From the NCBI GenBank assembly GCA_903824675.1, contig CAIJXV010000123.1:1-47299 (forward strand): a stretch of DNA of 47,299 nucleotides, given 5' to 3'. The notes under the pieces are model-generated. The model was given only the letters and a program-made list of their open reading frames with translations, was not told where the DNA came from and did no database searches. The translations under genes and the position numbers were made by a program. Numbering within the stretch: the first letter of the stretch is position 1; the number at the start of each line of letters is the position of its first letter. Below, in pieces: positions 13,992-47,299 of this stretch. This DNA is from an uncultured bacterium (lineage in GTDB: Bacteria > Verrucomicrobiota > Kiritimatiellia > CAIKKV01 > CAIJXV01).

Positions 13992-14762
13992 ATGAAGGTG
14001 ACGTTCTTAGGCACGGGAACTTCGGTCGGGGTACCGGTCATCGGATGTGATTGCGCTGTATGCCTGTCTAAGGATCCCAAAAACACCCGACTGCGATCCA
14101 GCCTGTATGTGGTGGTGGACGATTTACACCTGGTGATCGATACCAGTCCGGACTTTCGACAACAAGCTTTGCGCCATCGTATTCCCCGAGTGGATGCGGT
14201 CCTGGTCACCCATTCGCATGCTGATCATATCTTTGGGCTGGATGAAGTGCGTCGCTATAACACCCTCCAAAACAGTGTGATTCCAGTCTATGCGTCGGCC
14301 GAGACGGTTGAGGATTTGAAGCGGATTTTTAATTACATTTATGTCGAGGCCCCCCCGGGCACCTTTCGTCCCCGTCTCGAGATGATTGCGGTTGAGGTTT
14401 CATTTCGGTTGGGCCAGGTGACCGTGACCCCGATCCCGGTCCTTCATGGAAAAGTCAAAACCCTAGGGTTCCGCATCGATGCCGGTGGATACAGCATCGG
14501 ATATGTTCCCGATTGTCAGACGATGCCGGATTCGTCTCTGACTCTGTTGCGGGGGCTTGACCTCATGATTCTGGATGGGTTACGACATCGCCCCCATGCG
14601 ACGCATATGACCGTGGCGGAGAGTGTGGAGGTGTTGCGTCAGATCGGTGCCCGACGATCGTATCTGACCCATATGTGCCACGAGCTGGACCACGGTGAGA
14701 CCCAAGCGACTTTACCGGCGGGGATAGAACTTTCATGGGATGGGTTGGTGGTGACCCTATAG
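13992..14762 (+). CDS. PhnP-like metallo-beta-lactamase-fold hydrolase
   Basis: A 256-residue MBL-fold protein. It opens MKVTFLGTGTSVGVPVIGC and carries CDCAVC (Cys19, Cys21, Cys24), the structural zinc site of PhnP relatives. The metal-binding HSHADH is at residues 74-79, with further ligands likely at VLHGKVKTLGFR, VPDCQT and LTHMCHELDH. PhnP hydrolyses cyclic phosphoribosyl phosphates in phosphonate breakdown, but no phn genes are nearby, so a general phosphodiesterase role is safer. No strong Shine-Dalgarno precedes the ATG. It stands alone between the hppA palindrome and the tandem repeat array. Confidence 0.85.
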   Translation: MKVTFLGTGTSVGVPVIGCDCAVCLSKDPKNTRLRSSLYVVVDDLHLVIDTSPDFRQQALRHRIPRVDAVLVTHSHADHIFGLDEVRRYNTLQNSVIPVYASAETVEDLKRIFNYIYVEAPPGTFRPRLEMIAVEVSFRLGQVTVTPIPVLHGKVKTLGFRIDAGGYSIGYVPDCQTMPDSSLTLLRGLDLMILDGLRHRPHATHMTVAESVEVLRQIGARRSYLTHMCHELDHGETQATLPAGIELSWDGLVVTL

Positions 14763-14775
14763 ATTCGAGCCGACA

Positions 14776-15234
14776 GAAGTAAAGCCAGACCTACGGGATG
14801 GCTTCTGGGAAGCCGTGCGGTACGCCCGGCTGTACTGGCGGAAGTAAAGCCAGACCTACGGGATGGCTTCTGGGAAGCCGTGCAATACGCCCGGCTGTAC
14901 TGGCGGAAGTAAAGCCAGACCTACGGGATGGCTTCCGGGAAGCCGTGCGGTACGCCCGGCTGTACTGGCGGAAGTAAAGCCAGACCTACGGGATGGCTTC
15001 CGGGAGAAGCCGTGCGATACGCCCGGCTGTACTGGCGGAAGTAAAGCCAGACCTACGGGATGGCTTCTGGGAAGCCGTGCGGTACGCCCGGCTGTACTGG
15101 CGGAAGTAAAGCCAGACCTATACGGGATGGCTTCCGGGAGAAGCCGTGCGATACGCCCGGCTGTACTGGCGGAAGTAAAGCCAGACCTACGGGATGGCTT
15201 CTGGGAAGCCGTGCAATACGCCCGGCTGTACTGG
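14776..15234. repeat. Array of seven 65-69-bp tandem repeats
   Basis: Units begin GAAGTAAAGCCAGACCTACG at 14776, 14841, 14906, 14971, 15038, 15103 and 15172, giving periods of 65, 65, 65, 67, 65 and 69; the last is cut short near 15234. Every unit contains GGCTTC-loop-GAAGCC. The loop is TGG, CGG or CGGGA, so the two-base insertions fall in the loop and leave the stem intact. Units differ mainly in the loop and at GTGCGG/GTGCAA/GTGCGA. With a period not divisible by three, the reading frame shifts in each unit, which argues against coding. The rest of 14763-15325 holds only the downstream promoter. Confidence 0.95.
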
Positions 15235-15250: not shown

Positions 15251-15280
15251 TTGATTGCGGGTAGGTCGATCTTTTATTAT
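15251..15280 (+). promoter_or_regulatory. Candidate promoter of the Gfo/holin/coiled-coil gene run
   Basis: TTGATT (15251-15256), an 18-base spacer and TATTAT (15275-15280) lie 45 bases before the ATG at 15326, immediately after the tandem repeat array. Confidence 0.45.
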
Positions 15281-15325: not shown

Positions 15326-16579
15326 ATGAATAAGCCGGTCAATTTCATCCATTTGGCGGGGAGCGGAGCCGCGCGGGAGTGGGGATCCTTCGCTTTGGAA
15401 TTTCCCCATCGGGCGCGATTTACAGCGGTGGTGGATGCGGATCGGAATCGGCGCGAAGCTTTTGCCGCGGAGCATAACATTGCCAAAAACCGTCAGTATG
15501 GCACCTTAAAACAGGCGCAGCAGGAAGGCCGCTTGGCCGATGCGGCGCTGGTCAGCGTCCCTGAAACCGAGCGGGCGGCTGCGATTCTCGGCATGTTAGG
15601 GGCGGGCTATGACGTGATGACGGAAACCCCCCTGGCCTTGACGGCGGCGGATGTGACGGCCATTGCCGATGCGGCGCGCAAAGGAGATGCTATTTTGGCG
15701 GCATTTCATCCTCTGCGGCACCATTCGCTGTTCCGTACCGTGCGCCAGATGATTCATTCCGGTGCTTTTGGCCGGGTGTTGGGCGTGGAATTGACCCGGA
15801 CCTTGAGTCATGTGGCCATGGCTCACTATCACGTGCGGGGTACCTTGAACACCCAGTCGGCCTTGCCGTTAATGGGTGCCTGTGCCGGAACAGAATTGGA
15901 TCTGTTGCGCGGCTGGGCCGACTGTCGTCCGCGCAAAGTTTGTTCGTCCGGTGTCTTAACGCATTTTAAAGCCGATCGCGCGCCCCAGGGAGCGCCGGCG
16001 TTTTGTCTGGACGGGTGTCCGATTCAGCGGGACTGTCCCTATCACGTGGTCCGTATGTATGGGGATGCGGGAGCGGACCTTTCCCTGGTACGGCAGATCG
16101 GCGCGTTCAAGGAACGTCACGAACTCTGGAATTCTCTCCGGAACAGTCGATATGGCCGCTGTGTCTACAAGTGTGATAACGATGTCTTGGATTTTCAAGC
16201 CGTTGCGATCGAATTCGAAGGGTCCGTTACCGCCCATTTAACCGTAACCGGGATGGGCGGGGAGGATGCCCGCATGGCGCGAATTGTGTTGGATAACGGG
16301 TTGATCGAACTCGATAGCCGGAACGGATTGATCCGCGCCGCGACCCTGAATCCCCCGATGCGCCGCGAAGTGGAATCCGTCGGAGCCCCGCCGGATCCGA
16401 TACGGGCGATGTTGGATGCCTTTATCGATGCGGTAGGGAGTCGGGATCGCCGCCATCTTCCGGCCCCTTTTGGGGCCTCCCTGGATGGCCATTGGATGGC
16501 CTTTGCGGCAGAGGAGTCCCGCCTTTCCGGAAAATGGGTGGAATTGCGAAATCCGGATGGTGGGCGCGGGCGGAATTAA
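15326..16579 (+). CDS. Gfo/Idh/MocA-like protein with degenerate active site
   Basis: A 417-residue Rossmann-fold protein of the Gfo/Idh/MocA family (start supported by AAGGGGA 8 bases upstream). The N-terminal HLAGSGAAREWG region and the DVMTETPLALT motif are family features, but the catalytic Lys of EKP is Thr101 (ETP). The usual (S/K)CHDLDLL segment reads ACAGTELDLL (185-194), so the catalytic His also appears lost. A Cys cluster, CLDGCPIQRDCPY (Cys227, 231, 237) plus CVYKCDND (Cys279, 283), matches a recognised subgroup and could bind metal. It may be an inactive, regulatory or altered-chemistry homologue. The holin-like gene follows after nine bases, so these are probably co-transcribed. 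Confidence 0.85.
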   Translation: MNKPVNFIHLAGSGAAREWGSFALEFPHRARFTAVVDADRNRREAFAAEHNIAKNRQYGTLKQAQQEGRLADAALVSVPETERAAAILGMLGAGYDVMTETPLALTAADVTAIADAARKGDAILAAFHPLRHHSLFRTVRQMIHSGAFGRVLGVELTRTLSHVAMAHYHVRGTLNTQSALPLMGACAGTELDLLRGWADCRPRKVCSSGVLTHFKADRAPQGAPAFCLDGCPIQRDCPYHVVRMYGDAGADLSLVRQIGAFKERHELWNSLRNSRYGRCVYKCDNDVLDFQAVAIEFEGSVTAHLTVTGMGGEDARMARIVLDNGLIELDSRNGLIRAATLNPPMRREVESVGAPPDPIRAMLDAFIDAVGSRDRRHLPAPFGASLDGHWMAFAAEESRLSGKWVELRNPDGGRGRN

Positions 16580-19667: not shown

Positions 19668-22600
19668 ATGAGTGACCAAAATAATGGGAAGGCCGAACGC
19701 GGATCGATCTTCAACGGGATCAGCCGTTGGGTCATCGGCGCTTTATTGGGCGTCGTTACGCTGTCGACCGCGAATGCGGTTTTCCCGCCTCACCCCTCCT
19801 ACCGGACGAATGCGCCGATCACTGGACAAATGTTGTCAGGAGAGGGCGGTGCGATTGTCGGACTGCAGGGGACCCGCGATTATTTTACAGCGACCAATCG
19901 ATATTTCTTATGGAACACGACCAATCGTTGGGTTGTCATTAACGATTCGACCGATCCGAGCTATACCGATACGAACACCTATGCCTATCGGCAGACCAAT
20001 GACTGGGCCGGCACGGATCCTGCGGAAATCTCGGCGGCTAATAACTTCAATACTCTCTATACGTTTTTCCGGGTAGCCTACGGACGGGATGGTTTTGATC
20101 GGAACGGGGCCATGGCCAGTCTCCATGTTCATGCGCAATCCTACAACAACATCCCCTCTTTTTATGGGGGGCAATTGGGGTTTTCGTTCGGCGATGGATC
20201 GCCGGGGATGGATGGCCCGTCGAGCGTATTGGATCTTTGCGGGTGGGTCTATGCCGATGCGATGATCCAGAATGACCTCCTTTATATTGGAGGCCAATAC
20301 GGTGGGGCCCTGCAAATTTCGTTCTGTAATATTTTCGGGTTTCTGTCCGAGTACTACAATCAACCCGACAACTTGGCGGCCTATCCGTCGGTCACTCCCG
20401 GGCAGTCCGATTGGTTGATCGGCGAAGATATGAAATTGAATTTTGTCGCTATTTATGACATTCGCAATCCGACTAATAATCTGGTTGAGCGTCCCCGGAC
20501 CAACTCTTTTTCCGGCGTTTCCAACGGCTCTGATTTTGATTCCGGCATTCAAGATACGGTTTTTTACTATCTTTGCCAGGGAGGATCCTGGACCGTTAAA
20601 CCTCTTAGCACCAATATCGTTGGGCTTCTAACCAATGAGGTTCAGGCCATTGGAATTGATGCTGCCGGTCGGATCGCCTATCGGGCGTTAACGAAATATT
20701 TCACACAAAATATGGATTTCCTGACTGCCAGAAGGGCTTGGGTGCAGGCGGCTGACGATTCCGATTCGTCAGGGCAAACAACCAATGCTGTTGAAAGTGT
20801 CATGCGAGCCTGGGCGGCGGTTGGAGTACCCGACCCTGCCCAGATCATTTATCCCGGCAGTGGATTTGTTGCCGGGGGAGAATATCCGCTAGGGCCTTAT
20901 CTCCCCTCCCAGAAAACCTATTGGGTTTTCAATAATTCTCTGTCCAATAATGAATGGGCCGTGAGCAGTAGTGTTCCCTGGATCGTGGTATCTGCGGATT
21001 CGCTGTCGATTACCGGGCGGTCCTATGCCAATGAAAATGTCAGCACCAATATAAGGGTCAGCTTTAATTCGGGTGACATTATTTCGATGGGAGAAGGGTA
21101 TTATACGAGTTCCATTATATTCACCAATATGACTATCAGCAATGCCTACTTCCGTAATGTCACGGTGGGCGGCGTGCGAAATTATCAGTCGATACCCACC
21201 GTCTATTCCTGGCGCACACCCGCTTCGCCGCCCACCTATTTGCCCTTGAGTGATGATCAAGTTTCGGGTCCCATCTCTGTGCCGTTTGCCAATGGATGGC
21301 GTTTCTTCGCTGAAAAACGAACACAGGTTTATATCGGAGCAAACGGATTGATGGGCATTAATCCTGCCAATATGGGTCTCAAAACGAATAGCTTTTTGGC
21401 TCGGATTGATACTCCCAATGGCATTGTTGCTCCCTTGTGGGATGATTGGGTTCCCACCACTTCCAGCACGTCGATTTTTTATTTTGTTCGTGGAACAGCC
21501 CCCAATCGTGAATGGGTGGTGACTTGGAATGATATGCACCATGCCTTGAGTATTGATACCCGCGCCTCGTTCCAGGTCGTTATTCCGGAAGCGGCTACGA
21601 ATTGCAATAATGACATCCTTTTTCAATACCGGACGATCACCGATAGTGGCGAATTCGGTGCGGGGCGGTCGGCGACCATTGGAGTGGAGGATCGACTCGG
21701 ATTTGTGGGGGGGATGTATTCCTCGAATGGGACCCATTGGATTACCAGTCAACGGGCGATTTTGTATTCGACCAATCCTCCTCCGGTAGACACCGTCCCG
21801 CCGACCGGTGAAATTGTCATGGAGTCATTCTCCCTGGCGGCATCGTCCGCTGTTTATGTCGTTCGATTCAGTGAATCCGTAACGGGTTTAGCATTGTCCG
21901 ATTTCGACTTGTCCGGTTCAACTGCGGGAGGGGTGGCCGCAAAGTTGGAGGGCGCCGGAATGGTTTACCGTTTGACAGTCAGTGATTTTTTACCCTTGGG
22001 AACATTATCGGTGGGGCTCCCGAGCGGATCTGTTTTGGATGAAGCGGGTTTGCCCAATGCAGTGGCGATTGAACCTGTTATTTACATCATTCCTATTCAA
22101 TCCAAGAATCCAACCGAAGACTTCGAAGGGGCCCTTGAATTTTGGCGGAAACCGACCAACAATTACGCCAATGCCTGGCGGGATGTTTGGCGTCAGGGAG
22201 TTCTCCCTGCAACGAATCCGCCAGGATATTCCTATAGTGGATCGCAAGTCTTGATGGCCGTCGTGACCAATACGGATTTGCCGTTGGATTCCTGGTTTGA
22301 ATCCCCTGAATTTTCGGTCGGAACCAACCCGATCATTCAGTTTGCAGTGTGGTATGACACTCAAGCTCGATTGACGGTGGAGGCCTATGATGGGACAACT
22401 TGGCGGAATGTGACTCCGGGTGCAGGGTGGACGGGGAGTTCCTATTATTGGTTACCGCAACAAGTGGCGTTGGATAATGCTCTTTTCGCCAATCGAGCGA
22501 TCCGAGTCCGATTCCGTTTGGTGGGATCTGATTCGGTGGGGATTCGCGCCGCGGTTGATGCCTTCCAACTGGTGGACGGTTTGAATCCAGGTGTTTATGT

Positions 22601-23828
22601 TTTAAGTTATGCGCCCACCAACTTATTGCCGTCATCGGTTAACCCGATTAGTTATACGATCTATAATAGTTCTTCTTCCACGGTATTCGGTGCTGTTGGT
22701 TTCCGCTCTGTGGCGGATCCCGGGGTGACATTTTTGGGGCCGGTTGTGATCGATTACGGCGATCTCTTGCCAGGAGATATTCAGTCTGTCAACGTCAATA
22801 TCGGAGTGGGTGCTTTAGTCGAACTTCAGGGGAATAAAGTCTCGCTTTTCCATTCAGTTACGGCGACCGTGGGGCGGGTTGGCGCAGATGTGCTCGATTT
22901 CACGGTCATTGGGGCAACCGATCAATTGGGTATTAACCGGCTGACCGTAAAGGGCGGCATCGTGACGAACGGGTTGAGCCTTCCGTTGTTTGGGGATGGG
23001 TCTTTGAATTCGTGTGTATATCAGATCCTGGATGCCGGACCGGATGGCATTATCAATCCTCCTTCGACCAATGGGGCGCCGACTGGAGACGATCAGATAT
23101 TATATTCCATTACTCCGATGGGCAATTTTGCCTTTGGCCGGTTTGGAGATGGTGCCGTACCCGAAAATGCAGGATATTTCGAGTCGCTTTTTGAATTATT
23201 CGATCCTATCCCGTTGTATCGTTCAGTTTATGCTCGTGCGTGGGATAGCGATAATTTTGGAACGGCCACCGCCTATGGGAACTCCGCGTTGGTGGAATTA
23301 GCAACCAATGGATCACAAACAGTTAATTTTGGCGAGTGGGGGGTAGGGAGTGCGATCAGTAATCTGGCGTCGACAGGGTTGATCACGGTGTCCAATACTC
23401 CGCTCGAGGGGGGGACGACATTGGGGGGTGGAAATTTTGCGATTGGCACTTTGCAGAGCATATCCGCCACTCCGAATCTGTTTTGGCGGTTTGTTAAGTG
23501 GACCGATGGCGACAGCAATAATCCCCGGTCCGTTTTGATCACCAGTGTCGGGTCTAACTATGTGGCGGAATTTACCAAGGAACTGATTCCGATTCTGATC
23601 AGCCAGATCAGGTCGAAGGGATTTAGCCTCAGTTGGAATGGAACCAATCAAGGTGTTTATCGGGTTGAAACCGCCACGAATGTCGCCTTTTTCCCCACCA
23701 ATAACTGGAGTGCAGCCCCGGGGCCACTGGTGACTTCGTTACTCAATGGAGTGGTGGTTTGGACGAATCCGGTGACCGTGACGAATACCCCTCAATTCTG
23801 GCGGGTGCAATGGATCAACGCACCATGA
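19668..23828 (+). CDS. Large secreted multi-domain beta protein (1386 residues)
   Basis: An exported protein with a long polar n-region, a hydrophobic WVIGALLGVVTLSTANA stretch and likely cleavage after residue 37. Residues 38-390 are an unrecognised beta-rich region. About 400-500 resembles a BACON-like domain (NNEWAVSSSVPWIVVSADS). About 505-690 resembles a nidogen-like beta module (GIVAPLWDDWVPT, EWVVTWNDMHH, NDILFQYRTIT). About 700-800 is a bacterial Ig-like domain (VYVVRFSESVTGLALSDFDL). About 807-975 is a jelly-roll (DFEGALEFWRKPTNNYANAW). About 1245-1300 is an InlB-type B-repeat (LFWRFVKWTDGD). The final 65 residues form a domain shared with the 7040-residue protein. No catalytic motif is seen. 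AAAAGGTG precedes the start. It is probably surface-associated or secreted. Confidence 0.85.
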   Translation: MSDQNNGKAERGSIFNGISRWVIGALLGVVTLSTANAVFPPHPSYRTNAPITGQMLSGEGGAIVGLQGTRDYFTATNRYFLWNTTNRWVVINDSTDPSYTDTNTYAYRQTNDWAGTDPAEISAANNFNTLYTFFRVAYGRDGFDRNGAMASLHVHAQSYNNIPSFYGGQLGFSFGDGSPGMDGPSSVLDLCGWVYADAMIQNDLLYIGGQYGGALQISFCNIFGFLSEYYNQPDNLAAYPSVTPGQSDWLIGEDMKLNFVAIYDIRNPTNNLVERPRTNSFSGVSNGSDFDSGIQDTVFYYLCQGGSWTVKPLSTNIVGLLTNEVQAIGIDAAGRIAYRALTKYFTQNMDFLTARRAWVQAADDSDSSGQTTNAVESVMRAWAAVGVPDPAQIIYPGSGFVAGGEYPLGPYLPSQKTYWVFNNSLSNNEWAVSSSVPWIVVSADSLSITGRSYANENVSTNIRVSFNSGDIISMGEGYYTSSIIFTNMTISNAYFRNVTVGGVRNYQSIPTVYSWRTPASPPTYLPLSDDQVSGPISVPFANGWRFFAEKRTQVYIGANGLMGINPANMGLKTNSFLARIDTPNGIVAPLWDDWVPTTSSTSIFYFVRGTAPNREWVVTWNDMHHALSIDTRASFQVVIPEAATNCNNDILFQYRTITDSGEFGAGRSATIGVEDRLGFVGGMYSSNGTHWITSQRAILYSTNPPPVDTVPPTGEIVMESFSLAASSAVYVVRFSESVTGLALSDFDLSGSTAGGVAAKLEGAGMVYRLTVSDFLPLGTLSVGLPSGSVLDEAGLPNAVAIEPVIYIIPIQSKNPTEDFEGALEFWRKPTNNYANAWRDVWRQGVLPATNPPGYSYSGSQVLMAVVTNTDLPLDSWFESPEFSVGTNPIIQFAVWYDTQARLTVEAYDGTTWRNVTPGAGWTGSSYYWLPQQVALDNALFANRAIRVRFRLVGSDSVGIRAAVDAFQLVDGLNPGVYVLSYAPTNLLPSSVNPISYTIYNSSSSTVFGAVGFRSVADPGVTFLGPVVIDYGDLLPGDIQSVNVNIGVGALVELQGNKVSLFHSVTATVGRVGADVLDFTVIGATDQLGINRLTVKGGIVTNGLSLPLFGDGSLNSCVYQILDAGPDGIINPPSTNGAPTGDDQILYSITPMGNFAFGRFGDGAVPENAGYFESLFELFDPIPLYRSVYARAWDSDNFGTATAYGNSALVELATNGSQTVNFGEWGVGSAISNLASTGLITVSNTPLEGGTTLGGGNFAIGTLQSISATPNLFWRFVKWTDGDSNNPRSVLITSVGSNYVAEFTKELIPILISQIRSKGFSLSWNGTNQGVYRVETATNVAFFPTNNWSAAPGPLVTSLLNGVVVWTNPVTVTNTPQFWRVQWINAP

Positions 23829-46542: not shown

Positions 46543-47299
46543 ATGAAAATCATTTCTCATTGTATTTTCTCGATGGGATTTGCGCTTCTTTTTGTTTCAT
46601 CCGCCTATCCCGTGTCGGTCGCCAGCGATTATGATGGCGATGGCCTTTCAGACCAGCCCATTTTCGATTCTGTATCCGGCAACTGGTATGTAAAAACCGT
46701 GGCCAATCAGGTCCTTAAGTGGAGGGAACATTGGAAATGGGGTCTCGGACCAACGGTGGTCGGCGATTATGATGGCGACACTAAATCAGATTTTGCCCAA
46801 TTCGTTCCCGCCGGAGGTTATTGGTATATCCGGTCAGCGAACAGTAATGTGATTGCGTGTGGCCTTCAGTGGGGGTGGAGTAGCGCTCAGCCCGTGCCGG
46901 GGGATTACGATGGGGACGGCAAATCGGATCTGGCGGTTTTCGATACGACCGGCGGCTATTGGTACATTCGTGGGGTTGATGGCGCGTTGATTGCCTGGCA
47001 AACCCAATGGGGTTGGAGCAGCGCCAAGCCCGTGCCGGGGGATTATGATGGGGACGGCAAATCAGATCTGGCGGTTTTCGATACGACCGGCGGCTATTGG
47101 TACATTTTGAGCCTGACGGGATCTGTCATCGCTTGGAAACAGCAATGGGGCTGGAGCAGCGCCAAGCCCGTACCGGGGGATTATGATGGGGACGGCAAAT
47201 CGGATCTGGCGGTTTTCGATCAGACCGGCGGCTATTGGTACATTTTGAGCCTGACAGGATCCGTCATCGCTTGGAAACAGCAATGGGGCTGGAGTAGCG
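46543..47299 (+). CDS. Partial gene: secreted VCBS/FG-GAP repeat protein
   Basis: An open frame from ATG 46543 to the right edge (252 codons seen). The signal peptide is KIISHCIFSMGFALLFVSSA, with cleavage near VSVA. From 46627 it consists of 46-residue repeats of the form GDYDGDGKSDLAVFDTTGGY, then WYI, an aliphatic strand and QWGWSSAKPVP. The DxDGDGxxD loop is the calcium site of FG-GAP/VCBS beta-propeller blades. Five units are seen, the last incomplete; the last three are nearly identical in DNA. A propeller of about seven blades would need further units outside the window. It is likely secreted and perhaps binds carbohydrate or another surface protein. Expression appears independent of the upstream run, given the terminator and the adjacent -10 box. 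Confidence 0.9.
   Translation, partial: MKIISHCIFSMGFALLFVSSAYPVSVASDYDGDGLSDQPIFDSVSGNWYVKTVANQVLKWREHWKWGLGPTVVGDYDGDTKSDFAQFVPAGGYWYIRSANSNVIACGLQWGWSSAQPVPGDYDGDGKSDLAVFDTTGGYWYIRGVDGALIAWQTQWGWSSAKPVPGDYDGDGKSDLAVFDTTGGYWYILSLTGSVIAWKQQWGWSSAKPVPGDYDGDGKSDLAVFDQTGGYWYILSLTGSVIAWKQQWGWSS
46627..47299 (+). repeat. 138-bp tandem repeats within the VCBS gene
   Basis: The GATTA(T/C)GATGG phrase recurs at 46627, 46765, 46903, 47041 and 47179, a perfectly constant period of 138 bases (46 codons). The units from 46903 on are nearly identical in DNA, a sign of recent duplication or gene conversion; the first two are more diverged. Confidence 0.93.

Follow-up and report, generated by a model that had tools for sequence, protein, structure and literature searches.

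The tandem array at 14776-15234 of the window, the 47,299-nucleotide stretch of bacterial DNA under analysis, is in all likelihood a cluster of REP-like dimers of the REPIN/BIME type. REP and BIME elements are long known from E. coli and Pseudomonas, and the array shares the features by which they are recognised: an imperfect palindrome of 20-40 bp in high copy, an extragenic position, inverted dimers and tandem clusters of these dimers. A further hallmark, a RAYT gene with copies of the repeat on its flanks, was not found in this draft assembly, and the unpaired tag is GTAN, not strictly GTAG; the family is thus REP-like rather than a proven REP member. The array is mostly ordinary, its unusual points being the bacterial group in which it occurs and the missing partner transposase.

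Architecture of the array

TRF placed the array bounds exactly at 14776-15234, with a 65-bp period, 7.0 copies and 93% matches. The unit starts are spaced 65-69 bp apart (Table 1), bearing out the seven tandem units of 65-69 bp described in the initial annotation of this DNA. The body of each unit is an inverted pair of imperfect 23-bp palindromes with an unpaired GTA at each outer end (GTA-hairpin, spacer, hairpin-TAC), and the dimer consensus is 5'-GTA-[AAGCCAgaCCtayGGgcTGGCTT]-spacer-[AGCCrnGCGataCGCnyGGCTG]-TAC-3'. Two hairpin types are distinguished: P2, GTA-AAGCCAgaCCtayGGgcTGGCTT, and, on the opposite strand, P1, GTA-CAGCCrnGCGtatCGCnyGGCTG. In the orientations assigned by the covariance model described below, the window hairpins alternate perfectly with their tags outward, forming seven head-to-head dimers.

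Substitutions among the seven units are confined to three alignment columns. The 69-bp unit, which starts at 15103, carries two 2-bp insertions, one in the loop between GGCTTC and GAAGCC and the other, TA, in the loop of the AAGCCA..TGGCTT palindrome; the earlier statement that the two-base insertions fall in the former loop is right for the first of them but not for the TA.

Table 1. Coordinates of the array, its units and other features of the window
Feature	Coordinates	Strand	Remarks
Metallo-beta-lactamase-fold hydrolase (Lactamase_B_2)	13992..14762	+	Upstream of the array; 13 bp between its stop codon and the array
Whole array	14776..15234		Seven head-to-head REP-like hairpin dimers (very probable reading), pattern ()()()()()()()
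Unit 1	14776..14838	+	P2 14776-14805 (+ strand tag GTAA), P1 14809-14838 (- strand tag GTAC)
Unit 2	14841..14903	+	P2 14841-14870, P1 14874-14903; CAA variant in P1 loop
Unit 3	14906..14968	+	P2 14906-14935, P1 14939-14968
Unit 4	14971..15035	+	P2 14971-15000, P1 15006-15035; spacer 2 bp longer
Unit 5	15038..15100	+	P2 15038-15067, P1 15071-15100; variant as unit 1
Unit 6	15103..15169	+	P2 15103-15134 with TA insertion in loop, P1 15140-15169; spacer variant as unit 4
Unit 7	15172..15234	+	P2 15172-15201, P1 15205-15234; variant as unit 2
Weak promoter-like match, 9/12	15251..15280	+	Between array and Gfo/Idh/MocA gene; chance mean 0.5 per region
Gfo/Idh/MocA oxidoreductase	15326..16579	+	Downstream; start 91 bp past array
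1386-aa protein	19668-23828		Thermolysin-type (M4) peptidase domain and weak matches to bacterial Ig-like domains; immediately precedes the 7040-aa frame
7040-aa open frame	24280-45402		Eight LamG-like (Laminin_G_3) stretches, subtilisin-type protease domain in the middle, terminal TSP3 repeats
138-bp tandem units	46870-47299		Probably a coding repeat, 46 aa to the unit; truncated at the contig end

A dispersed hairpin family with covarying stems

A BLAST search of the unit against its own genome (a 96% complete draft of 4.24 Mb in 124 contigs) located it in 83 places, some within arrays and others isolated. Aligned side by side, all of them are built of one hairpin kind in two sequence types. 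A covariance model trained on 46 distinct hairpin copies detected at least 149 hairpins, a lower bound that follows from scoring 150 candidates and leaves out a few weak ones; two further hairpins lie at L203 and L211. The 149 form 57 clusters, of which 27 consist of one hairpin, 17 of a pair and 13 of more than two. The stems covary, with a score of 0.280 compared with 0.122 for shuffled alignments and at most 0.160 when the partners were slid. Within the stem alignment 84% of cells pair, and changes on both sides occur at five of the ten stem positions (A-U to G-C, G-C to C-G and others). The covariation analysis of more copies that the initial annotation had proposed is therefore positive, but for the stems of P1 and P2.

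Among the matches listed, GTA stands at the hairpin foot in 148 of 149, a count partly favoured by construction because the training copies of the model were chosen with a pattern containing TAC. The fourth tag base is variable in the same 149 matches (GTAC 57, GTAA 52, GTAG 29, GTAT 10). Spacers between paired hairpins differ from array to array. Gene context was assessed on 47 genome stretches with a simple longest-ORF caller: 55 of the 57 clusters lie outside ORFs of at least 150 aa, though such ORFs make up 80% of the DNA examined (p ~3e-36), and nearly all clusters occupy unrelated intergenic spots between unrelated gene pairs. Readings as integron attC sites, CRISPR or iterons were set aside as a judgement on layout: the palindromes are dispersed, alone or paired, among unrelated genes, and no integrase, cas or replication gene was noted in linkage with them.

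A search of the genome and of its relatives, also proposed earlier, gave a divided answer: the unit is dispersed in its own genome, but in 57 relatives the covariance model returned only single hits with E > 1e-4, so that the family is confined to one of the 58 genomes searched. The exact 21-base P2 pattern had no match in viral contigs, nor in 84,980 genomes, a set that may exclude the source genome or a very near one. As judged from these comparisons, the repeat family appears to be lineage-specific. The H+-pyrophosphatase encoded in the window is closest to that of a Pontiellaceae MAG (74%), a single-gene placement that points to Kiritimatiellota.

Local expansion of the arrays

Unit identity is 94.5% within arrays versus 74.6% between them, and none of 2000 label permutations was as extreme. 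This homogeneity indicates that the arrays are local tandem expansions, which supports the recent duplication that had been named earlier as an alternative to function. Non-adjacent units of the window share the same variants (1 equals 5, 2 equals 7, and 4 resembles 6), as serial duplication would leave them. Many arrays stop at contig ends, and three pairs of contig ends (C52|C4, C51|C121 and C67|C20) look like single arrays split in assembly. Because the arrays break the draft assembly, their copy numbers are lower bounds.

Relation to known REP systems and the search for a partner transposase

REP families tagged by GTAG, with their HH dimers or BIMEs, are described by Di Nocera et al. (2013; PMC3733652), including E. 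coli REP/BIME-2 and GTAG-17, GTAG-19 and GTAG-20 of Opitutus terrae, and such families are reported from the PVC superphylum. The present family resembles them in being made of extragenic, many-copy imperfect palindromes of 20-40 bp with a conserved unpaired tag at one end, and likewise in its inverted dimers, variable spacers, tandem reiteration and subfamilies with complementary stem changes. It differs in its GTAN tag, and it was not recognised among the families by their descriptions in the text (PMC3733652). As in the REPINs of Pseudomonas (Bertels and Rainey 2011, PMC3116915), the unit is a doublet of inverted REPs; whereas each Pseudomonas REPIN type adjoins its own RAYT, no RAYT here has these hairpins in its flanks, and the window array comprises seven dimers compared with at most four in the REPIN clusters of SBW25 (PMC3116915).

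The expected substrate of TnpA-REP/RAYT transposases, and of the IS200/IS605 transposases at the ends of their elements, is a hairpin with a 5' tetranucleotide guide, and GTAC guide variants are still cleaved by one RAYT, that of REPtron Mb (PMC8266576). The GTA-tagged hairpins of this family are like such substrates, but the genome's own Y1 transposases, such as the one on C27, are flanked by other repeats. These comprise two full genes (C1 and C27) and one fragment (C57); the two full proteins are related to the NCBIfam RAYT model with scores below its cut-off. In the flanks of the Y1 transposase loci of this genome and of the order, no hairpin-model hit above chance was found, the assembly being a draft of 124 contigs, many of which end in arrays. 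On this search of the flanks, RAYTs at these loci were set aside as the source of the hairpins.

The RAYT-like Y1 transposase of C27 (L193:1729-3439) has a 46-bp direct repeat on both sides, each copy holding a GTA-tagged hairpin that is unlike P1 and P2 and whose arms are GTAATCCTGCCGCG..GGGAGGATT (AATCCT..AGGATT). A genome search for this flanking repeat gave only its own two copies, and it was discarded as a dispersed family.

Single hairpin copies are inferred to move, or to have moved formerly, in single-stranded form through the action in trans of an HUH (Y1) transposase that recognises hairpins. That enzyme would probably have been lost since, or be unassembled or unlinked, and the hairpin dimers would then have multiplied in place via unequal recombination or replication slippage.

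Hairpin pairs within a MITE and a mosaic repeat

Part of the hairpin family lies within other repeats. A 235-bp MITE with 27-bp TIRs (GGGTGTAAGACAAATTTCGGAGAAA) is present in seven copies 97-99% identical, and in older ones, and holds a P1-P2 pair arranged tail-to-tail. One copy lies at L046:2139-2373 and six more on C55, C43, C75, C108 and C32, some with apparent target duplications of 8-9 bp. A mosaic repeat of ~220 bp, noted at L064, L049, L050, L051, L063, L067 and L069 and present in ~15 near-full copies, contains P2 and a decayed or half P1. Its outer modules, the first 66 bp and the last 44 bp, are also met separately at other sites of the genome. Because pairs are enclosed in the MITE and the mosaic repeat, part of the hairpin family has been copied by hitch-hiking, and the spread of that part may be due to another class of transposase.

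On a broader reading, the palindrome pairs would have travelled inside a TIR-bearing MITE that a DDE transposase, acting on double-stranded DNA, mobilises, and the arrays and lone pairs would be remnants or amplified MITE interior, not REPs of the RAYT type. The near-identical and older MITE copies that carry the pair favour this, as does the lack of a RAYT linked to the hairpins. We consider it unlikely, however, since most hairpins lie outside any TIR, and the tail-to-tail pair of the MITE is set against head-to-head pairs in the arrays and in many lone copies, with different spacers. The window array and the lone head-to-head pairs contain no TIR of the MITE type, and the window units end at their GTA tags. 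The absence of the pair from other elements that share this TIR suggests that the pair entered the MITE and not the reverse.

Elements that share the TIR but have another interior are found at L199:698-835 and at L200, L201 and L202. The three on C93, C57 and C58 are no more than a few hundred bases away from a contig end, as is expected of a multicopy insertion sequence.

Neighbouring genes and local regulation

The array had been described as lying directly upstream of the promoter of a long gene run. Its intergenic position and its flanking genes agree with that description, but the promoter is a weak 9/12 match. The 7040-aa frame farther downstream would encode a giant protein that is secreted or exposed at the surface.

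A structured RNA or cis-regulatory array, acting as an attenuator, a 3'-UTR stabiliser or a spacer ahead of the Gfo/Idh gene run whose effect depends on copy number, is a distinctly improbable alternative. Stable folds are predicted for the RNA of either strand (z -2.4 to -4.9), the array begins 13 bp past a stop codon with a promoter-like site just downstream, and genes flanking the hairpins are mostly co-directional genome-wide (31/43), all of which would suit such a role. Against it, the element adjoins 57 unrelated gene pairs, promoter and terminator scans around the array came out near chance, and an Rfam scan of the window matched only the two tRNAs and no family for the array. The orthologous hydrolase locus in 15 members of the order (52-65% identical) has no tandem repeat beside the gene, these loci being too distant for an empty-site comparison. 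Given the 57 unrelated spots and these 15 orthologues, neither a chromosome-organising site, suggested at the outset, nor specific regulation of the genes downstream is supported. Nothing points to a local regulatory role; the function of the array at the window locus is probably incidental, and any effect on its neighbours, such as 3'-end stability of the hydrolase mRNA or partial termination, would by this analysis be of the incidental REP kind.

Origin of the GGCTTC/GAAGCC stem

The initial annotation had singled out a GGCTTC/GAAGCC stem, which we confirm in all seven window units with TGG, CGG or CGGGA as the inner sequence. It consists of the facing inner arms of P2 and P1, paired across the spacer. 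The 4-bp core GGCT/AGCC comes to stand face to face because inverted copies of the hairpin have AGCC and GGCT arms, and TC/GA extends it to six pairs. The stem is a by-product of the inverted palindrome pair. Folding predictions for the unit in single-stranded DNA give separate P2 and P1 hairpins (z -2.5 to -3.1), not the GGCTTC/GAAGCC hairpin; in minus-strand RNA, a single long hairpin is predicted with this stem at its tip.

That the stem does not vary within the array gives no evidence of selection, since only three columns vary and the chance that 12 stem columns escape three substitutions is ~52% (C(51,3)/C(63,3) = 0.52). Given the GGCT/AGCC ends, the window spacer folds no better than its shuffles, 15-26% of shuffled spacers folding at least as well. 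The six-base form is restricted to the window array, with an analogue, GGCTCC/GGAGCC, in one other array (C14), where the inner stem folds better than shuffled spacers. A six-base stem is impossible in arrays C51/C121 and C105 and in the lone dimer C116, whose spacers measure only 2 nt; the spacers of C4/C52, C7 and C89 do not match it, and in the lone dimer C13, too, it is absent or impossible. Broken stems in copies elsewhere had been named at the outset as refuting evidence, and these broken or impossible stems largely refute selection specific to this stem; selection on the hairpin as nucleic acid, as first proposed, is supported genome-wide for the covarying P1 and P2 stems but not for GGCTTC/GAAGCC. 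That selection acts on the GGCTTC/GAAGCC hairpin itself, as a site of protein binding or chromosome organisation, is highly improbable: the seven intact stems, the C14 analogue and the structured spacers on record for REP dimers (PMC3733652) are outweighed by the arrays and lone dimers that lack the stem, and by an in-array invariance and a spacer fold that chance would readily give.

Implications

An inverted palindrome pair yields a secondary, seemingly invariant hairpin that can be taken wrongly for the functional feature. As REP-like dimers, the hairpins add a family of this kind to a lineage near Pontiellaceae (Kiritimatiellota). The lack of a linked RAYT bears on how REP populations persist, as weak evidence given the fragmented assembly. 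A tentative and rather doubtful extension is that this is a REP-like population whose tag has relaxed to GTAN, whose own RAYT is gone and which is now spread by capture in the MITE and the mosaic repeat and by in-place growth of arrays. If that extension is true, REPs would persist and multiply without the transposase thought essential to them.
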